Below are positions 1,231 to 52,947 of a stretch of 64,000 nt of DNA, piece by piece. The stretch's first letter is position 1. Every line of letters starts with the position of its first letter. Position numbers and translations under genes: made by a program. The notes below the pieces were generated by a model, which made no database searches, was not told the origin of the DNA, and saw only the letters and a program-made list of their open reading frames with translations. This stretch comes from Cryobacterium inferilacus (GTDB lineage Bacteria; Actinomycetota; Actinomycetes; Actinomycetales; Microbacteriaceae): the NCBI RefSeq assembly GCF_019599185.1, contig NZ_JAIEUL010000013.1, forward strand, positions 62,001 to 126,000, read 5' to 3'.

Positions 1231-1776
1231 ATGAGCCACTTGCCCCACAGTGCAGAGGTGGAGATCGTGCTGCTGCTGGCGTCCCCCGTGCACCGCTACG
1301 AGGGCCGGCCGTCGGCCGGGCCGCTGCCGATGGTCGGCACCGAGACCCACCAGAGCATTCGGCTACGGGCGGGCCTGGGCATCGAGGGCGACCGGCACTT
1401 CGCCAGGCCCGCGCACGTGCACACGTCTGTCACGGTGATGAACGCGGCCGTGCTGGACCGGGTGGCCGACGAGCTCGGGCTGCCAGGCCCCCTGGATCCC
1501 GCCGCCACCCGGCGCAACATCCTGCTGCGCGGCACCGGGGGCGCCGTCGACGTTGATGCCCTGCGCGGCGCCACCTTCTCGCTGGACAGCGGCGACGGCC
1601 CCGTCGAATTCCTCGCCCACCGGCCGGCGAATCCGTGCGCCTGGATGGACGTGGTGCTCGCCCCCGGCGCCCACCTGGCCCTGCGCGGGCGCGGCGGCAT
1701 GCGCTGCGAACCGCTCAGCTCCGGGGTGCTGCGGCTCGGGCCGGCCCGGCTGCGCAGCAGCATCCCGATCGGCTAG
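1231..1776 (+). CDS. MOSC domain-containing protein
   Basis: About 181 residues, matching the single-domain MOSC (molybdenum cofactor sulfurase C-terminal) family. Visible family features are GIEGDRHFA (about residues 50-58), NILLRG near the middle and an invariant-type cysteine in the NPC motif (RPANPCAWMD) toward the C-terminus. MOSC proteins handle sulfur or metal-sulfur groups, often in detoxification or cofactor delivery; no partner is evident nearby. The start could be GTG at 1228 or ATG at 1231, and neither has a strong ribosome binding site. Its stop shares the four bases CTAG with the stop of the convergent epimerase gene. Confidence 0.85.
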   Translation: MSHLPHSAEVEIVLLLASPVHRYEGRPSAGPLPMVGTETHQSIRLRAGLGIEGDRHFARPAHVHTSVTVMNAAVLDRVADELGLPGPLDPAATRRNILLRGTGGAVDVDALRGATFSLDSGDGPVEFLAHRPANPCAWMDVVLAPGAHLALRGRGGMRCEPLSSGVLRLGPARLRSSIPIG

Positions 1777-2618
1777 GGGTGCCGCACGCCGACGCCGGCC
1801 AGCACCGCCCGGTAGCCCTCCCGGTAGCCCGGGTAGGTGAGAGTGAACCCGGTGGCGAGGATGCGCTCGTTGCTCAGCCGCTTGTCACCACCACGGCGAC
1901 TCCCGGTCTCGACGATCTCTGGCACGGGCAGGTCGAGCTCGCCGGCGACGAAAGCGAGCACCTCGGCCGCGGGCACCGGCGCGGAGTCCACCCCGATGTA
2001 GAGCGGGTCCGGAGTGGCCTGGCGGGTCAGCAGGTGCACGATCATGGCCGCGGCATCGTCGCGGTGGATGCGGTTGCTCAGCCGGCCGAGCTCGGCGACC
2101 GTGGCGCGGCCCTGGCGCACCTGGTCGATCAGCCGTTCCCGGCCGGGCCCGTAGATGCCGCCGAGCCGCAGCACCACGGCGGAGGGGATCCTGTCGTGCA
2201 GGAGCTGTTCGGCCTCGAGCAGGATTGAATCCGTTCCGGGGCCGGGGTTCGCCGGGGTGTCCTCGTCGACGGCGCTGCCGTCGTTCACGTCGTAGACGGC
2301 CGTGGACGACACCATCAGGAACCGTGTCGGGCGCGCGCCTGCGGTGTCCAGGGCGTCGAGCAGATTGGTCAGCCCGGTCACATAGGCGGCTCGGTAGACG
2401 GCAGGGTCGGGGTTGCCGGCAGCAATGGTCACGACCACCAGGTCGGTGTCGGCCGGCACCGGCGGGCGTTCGGTGGCGAGGTCCACCGACACTCCGGTCA
2501 GGGGCGCAGGCAGCATCTCGGCCCGGCGGCGCAGTCCCACCACGGTGCGGCCGAGCGCGGCCAGGCGCAGGCCCACCTCGGTGCCGAGGTCGCCGCATCC
2601 GGCAATCAGTACAGTCAT
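1773..2618 (-). CDS. NAD(P)-dependent epimerase/dehydratase (atypical SDR, YeeZ-like)
   Basis: A 281-residue extended/atypical short-chain dehydrogenase. The N-terminal MTVLIAGCGDLGTEVGLRL is a Rossmann dinucleotide-binding turn (GxGxxG type). VVTIAAG and FLMVSSTAVYD follow at the positions of the fourth and fifth strands, and LRLGGIYGPGR is the family's substrate-side motif. The start at 2618 is chosen because the glycine-rich motif begins at once after it; a longer frame exists upstream but overlaps prpC and lacks homology-like sequence. Substrate is unknown. It lies 29 bases downstream of prpC on the same strand, so it may be read through from the methylcitrate operon, although no functional link is obvious. 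Confidence 0.8.
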   Translation of the reverse strand: MTVLIAGCGDLGTEVGLRLAALGRTVVGLRRRAEMLPAPLTGVSVDLATERPPVPADTDLVVVTIAAGNPDPAVYRAAYVTGLTNLLDALDTAGARPTRFLMVSSTAVYDVNDGSAVDEDTPANPGPGTDSILLEAEQLLHDRIPSAVVLRLGGIYGPGRERLIDQVRQGRATVAELGRLSNRIHRDDAAAMIVHLLTRQATPDPLYIGVDSAPVPAAEVLAFVAGELDLPVPEIVETGSRRGGDKRLSNERILATGFTLTYPGYREGYRAVLAGVGVRHP

Positions 2619-2647
2619 GCCTTCAAGTATGGGGCGACCGTTCGGTG

Positions 2648-3820
2648 TCAGAGCACCTCGCCGGCTGCGGCGGGCGGAACGTGCCGCTCCGGCGTGCCGG
2701 TGTAGAACGACAGCGGCCGGATCAGCGCGTTCGCGGCCAGCTGCTCCATGATGTGCGCGGTCCATCCGGTCACCCGGGCGGCGACGAACAGCGGGGTGAA
2801 GGTGGCGGTGTCGAAACCCATCAGGTGGTACGCCGGTCCGGCCGGGTAGTCCAGGTTCGGCAGGATGCCGGTGCGCGCCGCCATGCCGGCGGCCAACGCC
2901 TCGTACAGCGCGAGCAGGTCTGGGCGGTCGAAGTGATCGATCAGGGTGAGCAGGGCCGCGTGCATGGTGGGCACCCTGGAGTCGCCGTGTTTGTACACCC
3001 GGTGGCCGAAGCCCATCACCTTGCGCTTGTGCGCAAGGGTGTCATCGAGCCAGCGATCGGCGCGCTCTGCCGCCCCGTCGCCCAGGCCGATCTCGGTGAA
3101 GATGTGCATCACGGCCTCGTTCGCGCCGCCGTGCAGCGGACCCTTGAGGGCTCCGACCGCGCCGGTCACCGCGGAGTAGAGGTCGGAGAGCGTGGAGGTG
3201 ATCACCCTGGCGGTGAAGGTGGACGCGTTGAAGGAGTGTTCGGCGTACATGATCATCGACACGTCGAAGGCCTCCACCACCTCGAGCTCCTTGACCTCGC
3301 CGAAGGTCATGTAGAGGAAGTTCGCCGAGTAGCCGAGGTCGTCACGCGGTTCGACGAGTTCGAGGCCGTGCCGGCGGCGCTGGTCGTAGGAGACGATCGC
3401 CGGCAGCTGCGCGAACAGGCGCAGCGACTTGGCCAGGTTGGCTTCGACCGACGAGTCCGGGGTGCTCAGGTCGTTCGCGCCGATCACGCTCACCGCCGTG
3501 CGGAGCACGTCCATCGGGTCGGCCGACGTGGGAATCTCGTCGATCACCCGGCGCACCGAGTGGTCCAGGCGCCTGAGGGACCGCTCGGTGCCCTCGAACT
3601 CGGCCAGCTGGGCCTCATCGGGCAGCTCGCCGTGCCAGAGCAGGTAGGCCACCTCCTCGAAGCTCCTCTGCGCGGCCAGTTCCTGTACCGGATAGCCGCG
3701 GTAGAGCAGCGAGTTCGAGTCCGGGTTGACCCTGGAGACGGCCGTGGTGTCGGCCACCACCCCGGCCAGGCCCTTGTGGATCTCGGGTCCGGTCGTCGTG
3801 GTCGTTGGCTGCTCGCTCAT
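2648..3820 (-). CDS. prpC: 2-methylcitrate synthase / citrate synthase
   Basis: A 390-residue citrate-synthase-family enzyme that condenses propionyl-CoA (and usually acetyl-CoA) with oxaloacetate, the entry step of the methylcitrate cycle. Catalytic residues are recognisable: His230 in GPLHGGANE, His273 in GFGHRVYKHGD and Asp324 in PNLDYPAGPA, with an additional conserved His in AEHSFNAS. Its short length and position behind prpD and prpB favour methylcitrate synthase over the housekeeping enzyme. The mRNA has AAAGGAG upstream; ATG at 3820 has better spacing (7 nt) than the adjacent ATG at 3823. It is the third structural gene of gntR-prpD-prpB-prpC, 73 bases after prpB. Confidence 0.93.
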   Translation of the reverse strand: MSEQPTTTTTGPEIHKGLAGVVADTTAVSRVNPDSNSLLYRGYPVQELAAQRSFEEVAYLLWHGELPDEAQLAEFEGTERSLRRLDHSVRRVIDEIPTSADPMDVLRTAVSVIGANDLSTPDSSVEANLAKSLRLFAQLPAIVSYDQRRRHGLELVEPRDDLGYSANFLYMTFGEVKELEVVEAFDVSMIMYAEHSFNASTFTARVITSTLSDLYSAVTGAVGALKGPLHGGANEAVMHIFTEIGLGDGAAERADRWLDDTLAHKRKVMGFGHRVYKHGDSRVPTMHAALLTLIDHFDRPDLLALYEALAAGMAARTGILPNLDYPAGPAYHLMGFDTATFTPLFVAARVTGWTAHIMEQLAANALIRPLSFYTGTPERHVPPAAAGEVL

Positions 3821-7143: not shown

Positions 7144-7215
7144 ATGACCGACCGCACCGGATCCACGCGCACCACCCCACCCCGTCCCGACGCCGCCCAC
7201 CCGGCCCCCGACTAA
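7144..7215 (+). CDS. Possible 23-residue leader peptide
   Basis: A short frame beginning ATG ACC GAC and ending TAA, too small for usual gene calling. It has a GGAGAG ribosome-binding-like sequence about 9 bases upstream and lies about 25 bases downstream of the expected transcription start at operator 2. The peptide is rich in Thr, Pro and Asp with a Thr-Thr-Pro-Pro-Arg-Pro stretch and resembles no family I know. Its stop codon coincides with the first bases of palindromic repeat copy A, so termination of its translation would occur at the foot of that hairpin. It may be a leader peptide, a small protein or chance. Confidence 0.35.
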   Translation: MTDRTGSTRTTPPRPDAAHPAPD

Positions 7216-7278
7216 CTGTTCCCCGTGCGGACAACTGGTCCCGGCACACCGGGCGCAATTGTCCGCATCGGGCACAGT
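7214..7278. repeat. Long palindromic repeat, copy A (degenerate left arm)
   Basis: An imperfect inverted repeat of about 65 bases whose right arm holds CGGGCGCAATTGTCCG, identical to copies B and C, while its left arm has diverged (CGGACAACTGGTCCCGG). Outer ends read AACTGT and ACAGT. It lies in the leader of the DUF485/symporter operon, 50 bases before that start codon, and could form a strong RNA hairpin. Unlike copies B and C it is not between convergent genes. Confidence 0.75.
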
Positions 7279-7328
7279 CACGTTTCGTTTCCTCAGCAAT
7301 CCCATTTCACCGGAGCAAAGGAGCCCCA

Positions 7329-7676
7329 ATGAAGGAATCACTGAAAGACACCAGGCCGGAGGACTCGATCGACTATGTCGAATTCGAGACCACCGACCGC
7401 TTCGTCAACCTGCAACGCCGGCGGCGGAGGTTCGTGGTGCCGATGGCCGTGTTCTTCCTGGTCTGGTACTTCGCCTACGTGCTCGTGGCGGCCTACCTGC
7501 CCGATGTGATGGCGCGACCGGTGTTCGGCAGCATCAACCTGGGCCTGGTCCTGGGGCTCGGCCAGTTCGTCACCACCTTCGCGATCACCATCTGGTACGT
7601 CGCGTTCTCCAACCGCGTGCTCGACCCGCTGGGTGCCGAGCTGCGCGCCGAACTCGAGCAGAAGGCCGCCGCATGA
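7329..7676 (+). CDS. DUF485 membrane protein (symporter partner)
   Basis: A 115-residue protein with two membrane helices (about residues 38-58 and 72-95) between charged tails, matching the DUF485 family (YjcH-like). Members are encoded next to, and are thought to assist, cation/acetate symporters. The motif FVNLQRRRRRFVVP before the first helix and a YVAFSNRVLDPL segment after the second are typical. AAAGGAG precedes the ATG at good spacing. Its stop overlaps the symporter ATG by 3 bases (ATGA). It is probably controlled by the GntR protein through operator 2 and possibly by the hairpin of repeat copy A in its leader. Confidence 0.88.
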   Translation: MKESLKDTRPEDSIDYVEFETTDRFVNLQRRRRRFVVPMAVFFLVWYFAYVLVAAYLPDVMARPVFGSINLGLVLGLGQFVTTFAITIWYVAFSNRVLDPLGAELRAELEQKAAA

Positions 7677-9322
7677 TCGCCCTGAGCACGACCATGACCG
7701 GAGTCACCACGGTGTTCGCCGAGGCCACCACCGATCAGGCGGAGAACAACCCGATCCTGAACATCTCGATCTTCCTGGCCTTCGTGGCCGTCACCCTGGT
7801 GATCGTGATCCGGGCGGGCCGCAACAACCGCACCGCCGCCGACTACTACACCGGCGGCCGCTCCTTCACCGGGCCGCAGAACGGCTTCGCGATCGCGGGC
7901 GACTACCTGTCCGCGGCGTCGTTCCTCGGTATCGTCGGCGCCATCGCGGTCAACGGCTACGACGGTTTCCTCTACTCGATCGGCTTCCTGGTGGCGTGGC
8001 TCGTTGCCCTGCTGCTGGTGGCCGAGCTGATGCGCAACACCGGCAAGTTCACCATGGCGGATGTGCTGTCCTTCCGGCTGGCCCAACGTCCGGTGCGGGT
8101 CGCGGCGGCCACCACCACCCTGGCGGTGTGCTTCTTCTACCTGCTGGCCCAGATGGCCGGCGCCGGCGGGCTCGTCTCGCTGCTGCTGGGCATCAACGAC
8201 AAGCTCGGCCAGTCCATCGTGGTCACCGTCGTCGGCGGCCTGATGATCATGTACGTGCTCATCGGCGGCATGAAGGGCACCACCTGGGTGCAGATCGTCA
8301 AGGCGTTCCTGCTCATCATCGGTGCCGGCGCCATGACGGTGTGGGTCCTGGTGATCAACGGGTTCAACCTGTCCACCTTGCTGGACTCCGCGGTCGCGAA
8401 CGCCGCGGTCACCCCCGGGGAATCGATCCTGGCTCCCGGCCTGCAGTACGGCGGCAACCCGCTGGACTTCATCTCGCTGGCCATCGCGCTGGTGCTCGGC
8501 ACCGCGGGCCTGCCGCACGTGCTGATGCGCTTCTACACCGTGCCGACGGCCAGGGAGGCCCGTCGTTCCGTGGTCTGGGCGATCTTCCTGATCGGCGCGT
8601 TCTACCTGTTCACCCTGGTGCTCGGCTTCGGCGCCGCTGCCCTCGTCGGTGCGGACACCATCCTCGCCTCGCCCGGAGGCGTGAACTCGGCCGCTCCGCT
8701 GCTGTCGCTGGCCCTCGGCGGTCCGCTGCTGCTCGGCTTCATCTCGGCGATCGCCTTCGCCACCATCCTCGCCGTGGTGGCCGGTCTCACGATCACCGCG
8801 GCCACCTCGTTCGCGCACGACATCTACGCCAGCGTGATCAAGAAGGGCAAGGGTGACCCCGACGGCGAGGTCAAGATCGCCCGGCGCACCGTCGTGGTGA
8901 TCGGCATCCTCGCCATCGCCGGCGGCATCGGCGTGCAGGGGCAGAACATCGCGTTCCTGGTGGCCCTGGCCTTCGCCGTCGCGGCGAGCGCCAACCTGCC
9001 CACCATCCTGTACTCGCTGTTCTGGCGCGGCTTCACCACCCGCGGCGCCCTGTGGAGCATGTACGGCGGCCTGGGTTCGGCTGTCCTGCTGATCGTGTTC
9101 TCGCCGGTGTTCTCCGGCACGCCCACCTCCATGTTCGGCGAGGCCGTGGACTTCGCGATCTACCCGCTGAACAACCCGGGCATCGTCTCCATCCCGCTGG
9201 GCTTCTTCCTCGGCTGGCTCGGATCGGTCACGAGCACCAAGCGTGAGGACCCGAAGCTCGCCGCCGAGATGGCGGTGCGCTCCCTCACCGGGTTCGGCGC
9301 CGAGAAGGCGAGCAACCACTAG
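7673..9322 (+). CDS. actP: Cation/acetate-type sodium:solute symporter (ActP family)
   Basis: A 549-residue integral membrane protein with about 13 helices belonging to the sodium:solute symporter family. The motif YYTGGRSFTGPQNGFAIAGDYLSAASFLG (two overlapping family signatures around residues 58-86) and GLPHVLMRFYTVP are diagnostic of acetate permeases. The short hydrophilic N-terminus (AEATTDQAENNP) could follow a weak signal-like segment. The ATG at 7673 is inside the DUF485 stop, far downstream of a longer spurious frame. Its position divergent from prpDBC, with a shared putative operator, suggests it imports propionate or another short-chain acid in this organism; substrate is inference. 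Confidence 0.9.
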   Translation: MIALSTTMTGVTTVFAEATTDQAENNPILNISIFLAFVAVTLVIVIRAGRNNRTAADYYTGGRSFTGPQNGFAIAGDYLSAASFLGIVGAIAVNGYDGFLYSIGFLVAWLVALLLVAELMRNTGKFTMADVLSFRLAQRPVRVAAATTTLAVCFFYLLAQMAGAGGLVSLLLGINDKLGQSIVVTVVGGLMIMYVLIGGMKGTTWVQIVKAFLLIIGAGAMTVWVLVINGFNLSTLLDSAVANAAVTPGESILAPGLQYGGNPLDFISLAIALVLGTAGLPHVLMRFYTVPTAREARRSVVWAIFLIGAFYLFTLVLGFGAAALVGADTILASPGGVNSAAPLLSLALGGPLLLGFISAIAFATILAVVAGLTITAATSFAHDIYASVIKKGKGDPDGEVKIARRTVVVIGILAIAGGIGVQGQNIAFLVALAFAVAASANLPTILYSLFWRGFTTRGALWSMYGGLGSAVLLIVFSPVFSGTPTSMFGEAVDFAIYPLNNPGIVSIPLGFFLGWLGSVTSTKREDPKLAAEMAVRSLTGFGAEKASNH

Positions 9323-9340: not shown

Positions 9341-9412
9341 CACAACTGTGGCCGAAACGGACAATTGCGCCCGGTACGCCGGGCGCAATTGTCCGTTCGG
9401 GGAACAGTTGTG
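9341..9412. repeat. Long palindromic repeat, copy B (best-conserved)
   Basis: A 72-base near-perfect inverted repeat. The arms begin CACAACTGT and close on CGGACAATTGCGCCCGG, with only a 4-base loop region. It lies between the convergent symporter and short-chain dehydrogenase genes, 18 bases after one stop and 4 bases before the other. It could act as a bidirectional terminator, but there is no T-tract, and copies A and C share the sequence rather than only the shape. That points to a dispersed repeat family. Confidence 0.85.
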
Positions 9413-9416
9413 CGGG

Positions 9417-10223
9417 TTACCCGCGCGGCAGGAGCGGCCCGCGGGCGACCAGGTGCGGGGCAGCCTGCGCCACAGGCTTGACCACGATCAGGTCCACGTT
9501 CACGTGCGCCGGCAGTTCAACAGCGGCCACGACGGTCGCGGCCACGTCCTCGGCCACCATCGGGTGGGCCACGTTGGCGTACGCCGCTTGGGCCTTCTCC
9601 ACGTCACCGCCGAACCGCACCAGGCCGAATTCCTCGGTCTGCACCATGCCGGGGGCCACCTCGATCACCCGGATCGGCTCCCCATTCAGCTCGAGCCGCA
9701 GCACCTCGGTCATGGCGTGGGCGGCGAACTTGGCCGCGTTGTACCCTCCGCCGCCGATGTAGGCGGTGTGGCCGGCGATCGAGGTGATGTTCACGATGTC
9801 GGCGGATGCGGCGGCGCCGGCATCCGTGTCGGTATCGGTCGGTGCGGTGAGCGAGGCGCGCAGCAACGGCAGCAGGGCGCTGGTGACCCGCTTGACGGCG
9901 AGCACGTTGATCTCGAACATCCAGGCCCAGTCGTCGATGGAGCCGGTCTCCACCGAGTCCAGTCCCTTGGCGCCGCCGGCGTTGTTCACCAGCGCGTTCA
10001 CCGGGCCGGTCTCGGCGAGGTAGTCCCGCAGGGCGTCGACGTCGGCCTGCACGGTGAGGTCGGCGGTGAACACGGCGGCTCCGGTCTCCTCGGCCAGCGC
10101 GGCCAGCCGGTCGGTGCGGCGGGCCACACCCACCACATCCCAGCCGTGCCGGCGGAACAGGCGCACGGTGGCCGCTCCGATTCCGCTACTGGCCCCGGTC
10201 ACCACAACTCTTTTTTTGCCCAT
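9417..10223 (-). CDS. SDR-family NADP-dependent oxidoreductase
   Basis: A 268-residue classical short-chain dehydrogenase, YdfG-like. Cofactor motif TGASSGIGAA at residues 9-18, NNAGG at 80-84, and catalytic Ser148 with Tyr161-x3-Lys165 (YNAAK) are all intact; Arg35-Arg36 after the second strand suggests NADP(H). A low-complexity insert rich in Thr/Asp/Ala (about residues 123-141) separates helix and strand before the catalytic serine. Such enzymes often reduce serine-like or 3-hydroxy acids; the substrate here is unknown. Divergent from the acyltransferase gene, with only about 20-30 bases between the starts. Confidence 0.88.
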   Translation of the reverse strand: MGKKRVVVTGASSGIGAATVRLFRRHGWDVVGVARRTDRLAALAEETGAAVFTADLTVQADVDALRDYLAETGPVNALVNNAGGAKGLDSVETGSIDDWAWMFEINVLAVKRVTSALLPLLRASLTAPTDTDTDAGAAASADIVNITSIAGHTAYIGGGGYNAAKFAAHAMTEVLRLELNGEPIRVIEVAPGMVQTEEFGLVRFGGDVEKAQAAYANVAHPMVAEDVAATVVAAVELPAHVNVDLIVVKPVAQAAPHLVARGPLLPRG

Positions 10224-49431: not shown

Positions 49432-49544
49432 GTGCGGGCCAAGCCTAGACAGCCGGGAACCTCGGTGCTTGAGTGACGGCCAGAATCACCTGCGCCCCTC
49501 GAACCCCGCCATCGTCGTCGCACCACGGATCCCCCGGGAGACCC

Positions 49545-50051
49545 ATGAGCGATCCACTTGCCGAGCCGAACACGCGTCGCACGCCGCAGGCCAACGCGCC
49601 GAACGCGACCGAGCCCGCACCCGGGACTGTGCCCGCCCATCCAGACCTGGGCCCGCCGGAGGGCTTCAGCGCCGATGACTTCTTCGGTCACCAGCCGAGT
49701 TCGCGCAGCTCCCTCCCCGACCCCGAACCGCTCCTGATCAACCTCACCCGCTGCGTCATCGAAGTCCTGGCCGGTGCCAGGGAACTGGACCAGCTGGCCA
49801 GGTGGGTCAGCGACGACGTCTACCGCCACCTGCTCAAACGCGTGGTCCTGTCGGCCAGGGCGCGAGCGGTGAAGGGCCAGCGGGCGCAGCGACCAGCCAT
49901 CACGATCGGCAGGGTCACGATCAACGAGCCGCGGGACGGCATCATCGAGGCCGTCGTCATCGTGCACAGCAAGGTGCGGGTGCGCGCCGTCGCGGTGCGG
50001 CTCGAGGGCCTGGACAACCGGTGGCGGGCCAGCGCGATCAACGTGCTGTGA
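49545..50051 (+). CDS. Rv3235-family protein
   Basis: A 168-residue protein. A Pro/Ala/Asn-rich tail (about 1-60) leads into a compact domain: LLINLTRCVIEVLAGARELDQLARWVSDDVYRHLLKR, then AITIGRVTINEPRDGIIEAVVIVHSKVRVRAVAVRLEGLDNRWRASAINVL. This matches the Rv3235 family that is regularly encoded next to secA in actinobacteria; its function is unknown. GGGAG lies 4 bases before the ATG. It converges on secA across palindromic repeat copy C. Confidence 0.88.
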   Translation: MSDPLAEPNTRRTPQANAPNATEPAPGTVPAHPDLGPPEGFSADDFFGHQPSSRSSLPDPEPLLINLTRCVIEVLAGARELDQLARWVSDDVYRHLLKRVVLSARARAVKGQRAQRPAITIGRVTINEPRDGIIEAVVIVHSKVRVRAVAVRLEGLDNRWRASAINVL

Positions 50052-50057
50052 CCCCGC

Positions 50058-50127
50058 GCAACTGTTGCCCATGCGGACAATTGCGCCCGGCGTACCGGGC
50101 GCAATTGTCCGTTTCGGCAACTGTTGG
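50058..50127. repeat. Long palindromic repeat, copy C
   Basis: An inverted repeat of about 70 bases with core CGGACAATTGCGCCCGG-cgta-CCGGGCGCAATTGTCCG, a perfect 17-base arm match, and outer ends CAACTGTTG / CAACTGTTG that pair imperfectly. It lies between the convergent Rv3235-family and secA genes, 6 bases from each. The core is identical to copy B, more than 40 kb away. Confidence 0.85.
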
Positions 50128-50133
50128 CCGGGG

Positions 50134-52947
<2,814 letters not shown>

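Follow-up and report, generated by a model that had tools for sequence, protein, structure and literature searches.

The recurrence of one long palindrome at three places in a 64,000-nucleotide stretch of bacterial DNA (the window) raises the question of what kind of element it is and what it does beside the genes that it accompanies. The analysis reported here places it in a family of dispersed palindromes of fixed length that favour the 3' ends of genes and convergent gaps, sit there without regard to orientation, avoid pairing at two places and share sites across species. All three palindromes of the original prediction are real, and covariance-model bounds move their coordinates by at most 3 bases, to 7212..7281 for copy A (cmsearch 79.4 bits on the minus strand and 67.7 on the plus strand), 9342..9411 for copy B (87.5 bits) and 50058..50127 for copy C (84.8 bits), each 70 bp long and with no strand assigned. 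The core of copy B (9358..9395) consists of CGGACAATTGCGCCCGG, the 4-nt centre TACG and the reverse complement of the first arm. Copy C (core at 50074..50111) has both arms as in B around the centre CGTA, which is B's centre inverted, and no common flanks of B and C are evident by eye. As also predicted, one arm of copy A (core at 7228..7265) has diverged: its plus-strand arm carries 3 mismatches, the minus-strand arm is exact and the centre reads CACA. When 3 mismatches are allowed, the 17-base core has six matches in the window, all inside these copies, whereas 100 shuffled windows give 0.65 on average and never more than 3. The window has no Rfam match at the gathering threshold.

Two of the copies lie between convergent genes, as had been proposed. 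Copy B is flanked by a sodium:solute symporter gene (7673..9322, plus strand; Pfam PF00474), which ends 19 bp before it, and by a short-chain dehydrogenase gene (9417..10223, minus strand; Pfam PF00106), which ends 5 bp beyond it, while copy C is flanked by a DUF6459 gene (49473..50051, plus strand; Pfam PF20060) and by secA (50134..52947, minus strand; Pfam SecA domains), each ending 6 bp from the palindrome. The placement of copy A in an ordinary leader, on the other hand, has to be revised. It is followed, after 47 bp, by a DUF485 gene (7329..7676, plus strand; Pfam PF04341), and it also overlaps the TAA of a 23-codon ORF (7144..7215, plus strand) that appears to be the remnant of an acetyl-CoA-synthetase-like gene. 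In Cryobacterium arcticum (locus L108), an intact gene of this kind (ACAS_N and AMP-binding domains) precedes the DUF485 gene; its upstream region and first codons align with the window, and after a few codons the tail of the short ORF resembles, by eye, the end of the L108 gene (PAPD versus HLPD before the stop). The acetyl-CoA-synthetase-like gene upstream of the DUF485-symporter pair thus shows an apparent internal deletion at 7144-7215. Since the remnant ORF stops at the TAA within copy A, this copy most likely belonged to the 3' end of a gene that has since been deleted. Counterparts of the symporter next to copy B in four named Cryobacterium records share 89-93% protein identity with it, and the host hence belongs to or near the genus Cryobacterium.

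The expectation of a dispersed REP-like family is strongly supported by the host genome (4,017,491 bases in 75 contigs) and by its relatives, some of which hold more copies, in extragenic positions at the 3' ends of genes. The exact 32-base double core occurs 14 times in the host genome (backwards control, 0), and a covariance model built from 22 copies chosen by their exact left core returns, at E up to 0.01, at least 133 strand-wise matches at at least 67 distinct places, 6 of them split at contig edges and 61 unsplit. Length is nearly invariant (70 nt in 59 of the 61 unsplit copies, 71 nt in one and 69 nt in one), and when the fetched loci are scanned more strictly, without gaps, 66 copies remain, 60 unsplit and 6 split. 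These numbers and the unrelated-looking flanks of the copies rule out two trivial accounts of the repeat, namely a genome holding only three copies and a segmental duplication. All 44 exact core arms of the host genome lie within the 67 palindromes, none being solitary, and the idea that half-sites might serve as uptake-like sequences was dropped on this count.

At E up to 1e-4 the family is found in 22 of 60 genomes, the host included: it occurs in 21 of the 36 other genus genomes, 16 with at least 13 strand-wise hits and 5 with 1 or 2, and in none of 23 genomes from other families. The best copies of nine relatives are clear family members, including those of G012 and G006, where copy number is moderate. 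The complete genome of one relative, G023, holds at least 150 strand-wise matches, that is, at least 75 places, and 87 copies are found when the fetched stretches surrounding these matches are scanned less strictly. Some G023 copies form local clusters (C1:519789-523511 and 2971345-2987279), in places 120-250 bp apart. Weak model hits in 8 further genomes, among 396 of the order, were not counted as evidence for the family beyond the genus; the best loci, read in 5 of the 8, are other long palindromes without the CGGACA-NN-TG-NNN-CCGG order. Other families of the order also have very long palindromes (L258-L262), a part of which adjoin gene ends and a part of which contain inner TGCGCCCG-like arms; their kinship with the 70-bp family is doubtful. 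Our literature search found no earlier report of a 70-bp Cryobacterium palindrome family, and a Cryobacterium genome paper mentions palindromic repeats, in the sections available, only for CRISPR (PMC7381226).

The position of the copies relative to genes, as called by a codon-usage caller trained on the window, is far from random. In the host genome, 32 copies lie between codirectional genes, 20 between convergent and 8 between divergent genes, with 6 at contig edges; the corresponding G023 figures are 42, 34 and 9, with one copy inside a gene, so that copies within called genes number 0 of 66 and 1 of 86, respectively. Against a background in which 54% of intergenic bases are codirectional, 16% convergent and 30% divergent (window plus 400 kb each of the relatives G031 and G004), convergent gaps are enriched in both genomes (20/60 and 34/85; p = 7.7e-4 and 1.1e-7) and divergent gaps depleted (8/60 and 9/85; p = 2.3e-3 and 2.0e-5). 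Copies between codirectional genes are closer to the upstream stop than to the next start in 31 of 32 cases in the host and 38 of 42 in G023 (p = 1.5e-8 and 5.7e-8), and the distance to the stop has a median of 19.5 nt, with 51 of 72 values at or below 30 nt. Orientation, as read from the centre, is indifferent to codirectional genes (15 sense, 15 antisense and 2 unassigned). A classical intrinsic terminator is not supported at these positions: the hairpin is strong and the T-tract absent, with a mean of 1.54 T per 12 nt after the hairpins against a background of 1.84 and a single TTTT run in 72, and a simple terminator scan flagged neither copy A nor copy B. When convergent gaps with and without the element were compared for other hairpins, the 6 element-free gaps did not surpass their shuffles (-21.1 against -22.1), and what remains of the 20 element-bearing gaps is short.

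Each arm of the palindrome reads (C)AACTGTT, N, CC, NNNN, CGGACA, NN, TG, NNN, CCGG from its outer end to a 4-nt centre, which is of the form T..G, or C..A on the other strand, in 55 of the 60 unsplit copies; the arm consensus and the centre-type and orientation counts do not include the 6 split copies. The original prediction had noted conservation beyond what a terminator needs, and the CC, CGGACA, TG and CCGG blocks indeed change very little, both inside the genome and from one species to another. With columns numbered 1-70, so that column i faces column 71-i, pairing was assessed on 152 copies from the host and G023, split copies included, and the resulting z values are descriptive, since neither the copies of one genome nor those of related genomes are independent of one another. 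On this scale the outer centre columns are complementary in only 9 copies where 75.6 are expected (z -10.8), and the inner centre columns in 61 where 87.3 are expected (z -5.1). Columns 13, 14 and 15 also pair less than expected (z -4.2, -2.6 and -2.5), as do columns 10 and 27 more weakly (z -1.9 and -2.2), and columns 9, 23 and 24 pair more than expected (z +2.9, +2.8 and +3.4). For columns 2, 16, 28 and 29 the values range from -0.2 to +1.3; several variable columns show no covariation. Exact cores co-occur on both arms above the independence expectation (both arms in 14 copies, one arm in 6 and 10, neither in 36; Fisher p = 3e-4). Among the first 22 copies, chosen by their exact left core, none of 500 shuffles pairs less well than the real arms do; RNA covariation as the sole constraint is not supported.

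Either strand can fold into a stem of up to 32 pairs with an unpaired 4-nt tip and an unpaired internal loop of 3-4 nt, the mean minimum free energies of the 60 copies being -47.3 and -48.0 kcal/mol on the two strands. Outside the element the flanks pair only weakly: the first three pairs are complementary in 26, 28 and 22 of 60 copies, and the number then declines to 16. The picture is that of a hairpin with kept stems and two places kept unpaired, for which the loss of unstable perfect long palindromes may be an alternative cause.

Many sites are common to several species. An element occupies what appears to be the site of copy A in G031 and is reduced to an apparent remnant in G004. At the site of copy B it is also present in C. 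arcticum, G031, G004 and G023, and absent from Cryobacterium sp. MP_M3, C. luteum and C. sinapicolor, where the spacers form strong hairpins (best 50-nt folds of -41.6, -37.9 and -37.8 kcal/mol, computed without a shuffle control). Among 29 relatives' loci for the DUF6459/secA site of copy C, 7 hold the element (G023, G079, G002, G011, G024, G004 and G031) and 22 do not, including those of the close relatives G070, G007, G060 and G073, in which both genes are found. Among more distant congeners, the secA site shows ordinary hairpins by eye at L200, L202, L209 and L214, and neither the element nor an evident hairpin at L207, L212 and L217. Genome-wide, at least 26 of the 66 host sites hold the element in G023 as well, a genome 87% identical to the host over the DUF6459-secA query, and one has matching flanks and no element; the other 39 found no flank match within the fetched G023 stretches, which says nothing on absence.

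The ortholog set retained 25 of 27 rows, after removal of a second copy at one site and of one indel pair. These pairs differ on average at 11.6 of 70 positions, against 15.8 in mismatched pairs, and none of 5000 permutations gave so low a value. Differences between orthologs amount to 0% in CCGG, 2% in CC and CGGACA and 4% in TG, against 47% in the NN spacer, 29.5% in the four internal-loop columns and 40% in the centre; the scan threshold favours conserved cores, and the low core change is hence partly by construction, the outer CC lying outside the scanned core. Mismatched pairs differ equally in CC, CGGACA, TG and CCGG, and by 47.5% in NN, which identifies the blocks as family-wide constants and NN as saturated. 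The excess similarity of orthologs over random pairs comes mainly from the outer block, from column 10, from the internal loop and from NNN. Of the 20 ortholog pairs with a defined centre, 8 have it inverted, and the whole element is closer in reverse in only 2 of 25. Template switching between arms, in the portions of the study available, inverts spacers and homogenises arms (PMC8604942), and template switching inside the palindrome is on these grounds a likely mechanism for the inversion of the tip at orthologous sites. At shorter range, G031 and G004 (306 kb aligned, 95.6% identity) show 7 copies in the G031 stretch, 5 of them with a G004 counterpart at the same site; besides the apparent remnant at site A, another G031 copy is missing from G004, where its surroundings are replaced, and one of the 6 G004 copies has no flank match in the G031 stretch. 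At one common site the core differs at many bases between 400-nt flanks that are 97-99% identical, and G004 carries there 78 extra nt just before an element whose core is the commonest exact core but for one base. Conversion by another copy, or template switching, would explain this divergent core.

We have moderate confidence in the explanation that best accommodates these observations, a REP-like, RAYT-less 70-bp family residing at gene 3' ends in much of the genus Cryobacterium and acting as bidirectional transcript-end hairpins. In its favour speak, among other things, the strong ordinary hairpins found where the element is absent, at site B in three congeners and at the secA site in some distant ones. 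Judged from its position, structure and conservation, the palindrome probably shapes mRNA ends. Transcribed copies would fold at mRNA 3' ends from either side, where the hairpins may stop or pause the polymerase, or block 3' exonucleases, and the conservation of the blocks suggests a putative protein that reads both sequence and unpaired bases. The copies would evolve in place, with template switching inverting the tip and evening out the arms and with deletion removing copies, and an IS3-like element inserts at the internal loop. Against transcript-end hairpins stand the absent T-tract, the element-free secA sites in which no hairpin is evident, and the copies in divergent gaps, one of which, A, follows a gene remnant. 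The variable columns without covariation and the shuffle test on the first 22 copies weigh on the same side. Furthermore, the blocks are no better preserved between orthologs than among unrelated copies, so that they could be kept by homogenisation or by a recent common origin, and the match threshold favours them.

The strongest competing explanation, which we consider unlikely without discounting it, is a selfish, non-autonomous REPIN- or MITE-like element moved by a putative transposase that reads the conserved bases and unpaired loops, the 3'-end bias reflecting only selection against insertions into promoters and genes. Copy number differs greatly among congeners, from none detected to the values seen in G023, where neighbouring copies are clustered; length and sequence blocks are fixed, and an unpaired tip and internal loop are expected of a recognised single-stranded hairpin. 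The search for a RAYT-type transposase called for by the original prediction, however, argues against this explanation. The Y1_Tnp domain (PF01797) is found neither in the host genome at E up to 0.1 nor in any of 57 genus genomes, host included, at E up to 0.001, while the control genomes were positive (8 and 5 of 14), and mobilisation by a RAYT was rejected on this basis. Repeats of 2-8 bp flanking 60 copies are no commoner than in shuffled flanks, so that target-site duplication is not in evidence. Against MITE-like mobility speak also the many sites common to the host and G023, and the two polymorphic, alignable sites between G031 and G004, which look like deletions or replacements and not like clean insertions. 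The only transposon compared with the palindrome, the IS3-like element described below, has unrelated ends.

A double-stranded binding site, in the form of a 70-bp dyad for a nucleoid- or chromosome-organising protein or a regulator, appears improbable. The repetition of the same blocks at fixed spacing on both arms, with unconserved spacers of constant length, would suit such a site, as would the random orientation relative to codirectional genes and the near independence of the arms at several variable columns; it is not evident, however, why a duplex site should shun complementarity at its centre and in columns 13-15, and the strong preference for positions just after stop codons and the confinement of all exact core arms to palindromes also speak against it. 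That these are ordinary intrinsic terminators sharing sequence by chance, with no family behind them, is very improbable, for although position and hairpin strength fit and some relatives have ordinary hairpins at the same sites, the exact double core common to 14 copies and the identity between unlinked copies contradict it, shuffled and backwards controls are far lower, the outer ends are conserved and there is no T-tract.

The palindromes also serve as landing sites for an insertion sequence. The tails seen at contig edges, which might have been taken for two IS types, are the ends of a single IS of about 1.5 kb (L354 ~1497-3005, equal to G031 C1:3024023-3025528; also at L398, L397 and the host contig edges). 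Its large protein matches the rve integrase core and scores 144.4 bits against the NCBIfam IS3 family transposase model, under the cut-off of 160, its small protein has no match, and the element is accordingly named IS3-like only. Every one of the 12 IS ends classified in the host genome (6 per kind) borders on a palindrome piece at one point, six being outer-arm pieces ending at column 15 and six core pieces ending at column 58; one of the seven B-end matches (C28, 77% identity) falls outside the classified set. The IS splits a palindrome in both of its copies in the complete genome of G031 and in one of two in G007, with 3-bp duplications (TTC, AAT and GAA) that correspond to columns 13-15 and hence coincide with columns that avoid pairing. 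Both orientations of the IS relative to the palindrome core occur. The second G007 copy lies outside the palindrome; both G007 copies (C1:2896040-2900950 and 3723412-3728322) span about 4.9 kb from end to end, which suggests some 3.4 kb of additional DNA in each.

Elsewhere in the genus this IS adjoins different repeats. One is a second, unrelated family with TTCGACGGAG...CTCCGTCGAA ends, mostly 73 bp long among the copies listed, whose interior is variable and not a simple palindrome (L383-L388) and which occurs in 23 of 57 genus genomes, in up to 127 copies. Eight genomes with at least 70 strand-wise hits of the 70-bp family (up to 84 among the hits listed) contain no copy of this second family, three genomes with 104-127 copies of the latter have 20-47 strand-wise hits of the former, and several genomes carry both. 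A third kind of repeat, around GCGCGGGAGTTGCGCC, lies beside the same IS in G078 and G069 (L331, L333, L346, L348, L352, L362, L375 and L376). These patterns allow a broader conjecture, which we offer as speculative and unlikely as it stands: RAYT-independent, REP-like hairpin systems would replace one another between Cryobacterium clades, the 70-bp family and the ~73-bp family with TTCGACGGAG ends being high-copy in different species, each would be kept at gene ends by a putative protein reading a hairpin whose unpaired bases are obligatory, and a single IS3-like element would use both as safe landing sites.

RAYT transposases account for GTAG REPs and REPINs; the present family is actinobacterial and has the gene-end habit of REPs in a genus where no RAYT was found. 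Its sites common to species are numerous enough to separate selection from spread, and its two pairing-avoiding places, one of which is the IS landing point, provide a direct handle on the reader of the hairpin. As described in the available portions of a survey, REPs or palindromic units form GTAG- and CGTC-tagged superfamilies of 20-40 bp, the CGTC REPs also occurring without a dedicated transposase, and tagged REPs reside predominantly in Proteobacteria; no word beginning with 'actinobacteri' appears in the main text as available (PMC3733652). Like the REPs of that account, the present palindromes are high-copy, dispersed, extragenic and hairpin-forming, and lie mostly in unidirectional or convergent gaps, downstream of coding regions (PMC3733652). 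Unlike them, they are 70 bp long and show no excess of GTAG or CGTC at their ends (near 2 and 9 of 120 ends, respectively, on either strand, against backgrounds of 3.2 and 14.0), and no RAYT was found in the genus. With REPINs, in the parts of their description available, they share an inverted pair of conserved blocks in one hairpin, high copy number and extragenic location, and they differ from these elements, which are RAYT-associated in the cases described (PMC3116915), in the 4-nt centre, in a length that is nearly always 70 bp and in that no RAYT was found here. The target-site duplication of IS-derived MITEs was likewise not found.

Further parallels concern the way in which the palindromes are invaded and change. 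ISPsy8, of the IS3 family, breaks REPs at one point with a 3-base repeat, according to the excerpted report (PMC1525189), and as with the REP-targeting ISPsy8, IS1397 and ISKpn1, an IS3-like element here breaks a palindrome at a constant point and, like ISPsy8, leaves a 3-bp direct repeat. The IS and the host are different, however, the duplicated 3 bp coincide with the internal-loop columns in which pairing is avoided, and the same IS also occurs outside the palindrome, in one of its two G007 copies, and in other repeats elsewhere. Inverted repeats shaped by template switching offer a likeness of another kind, in spacer inversion and arm homogenisation (PMC8604942) and in the maintenance of hairpins (PMC8794818), again as far as the available text of both studies goes; in contrast to those cases, the tip is inverted at orthologous bacterial sites and most whole elements keep their orientation. 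Set apart from canonical REPs by length and tag and by a genus in which no RAYT was found, the family is hence filed as a REP-like variant, which shares with REPs both the habit of residing at gene ends and the role of landing site for an insertion sequence.
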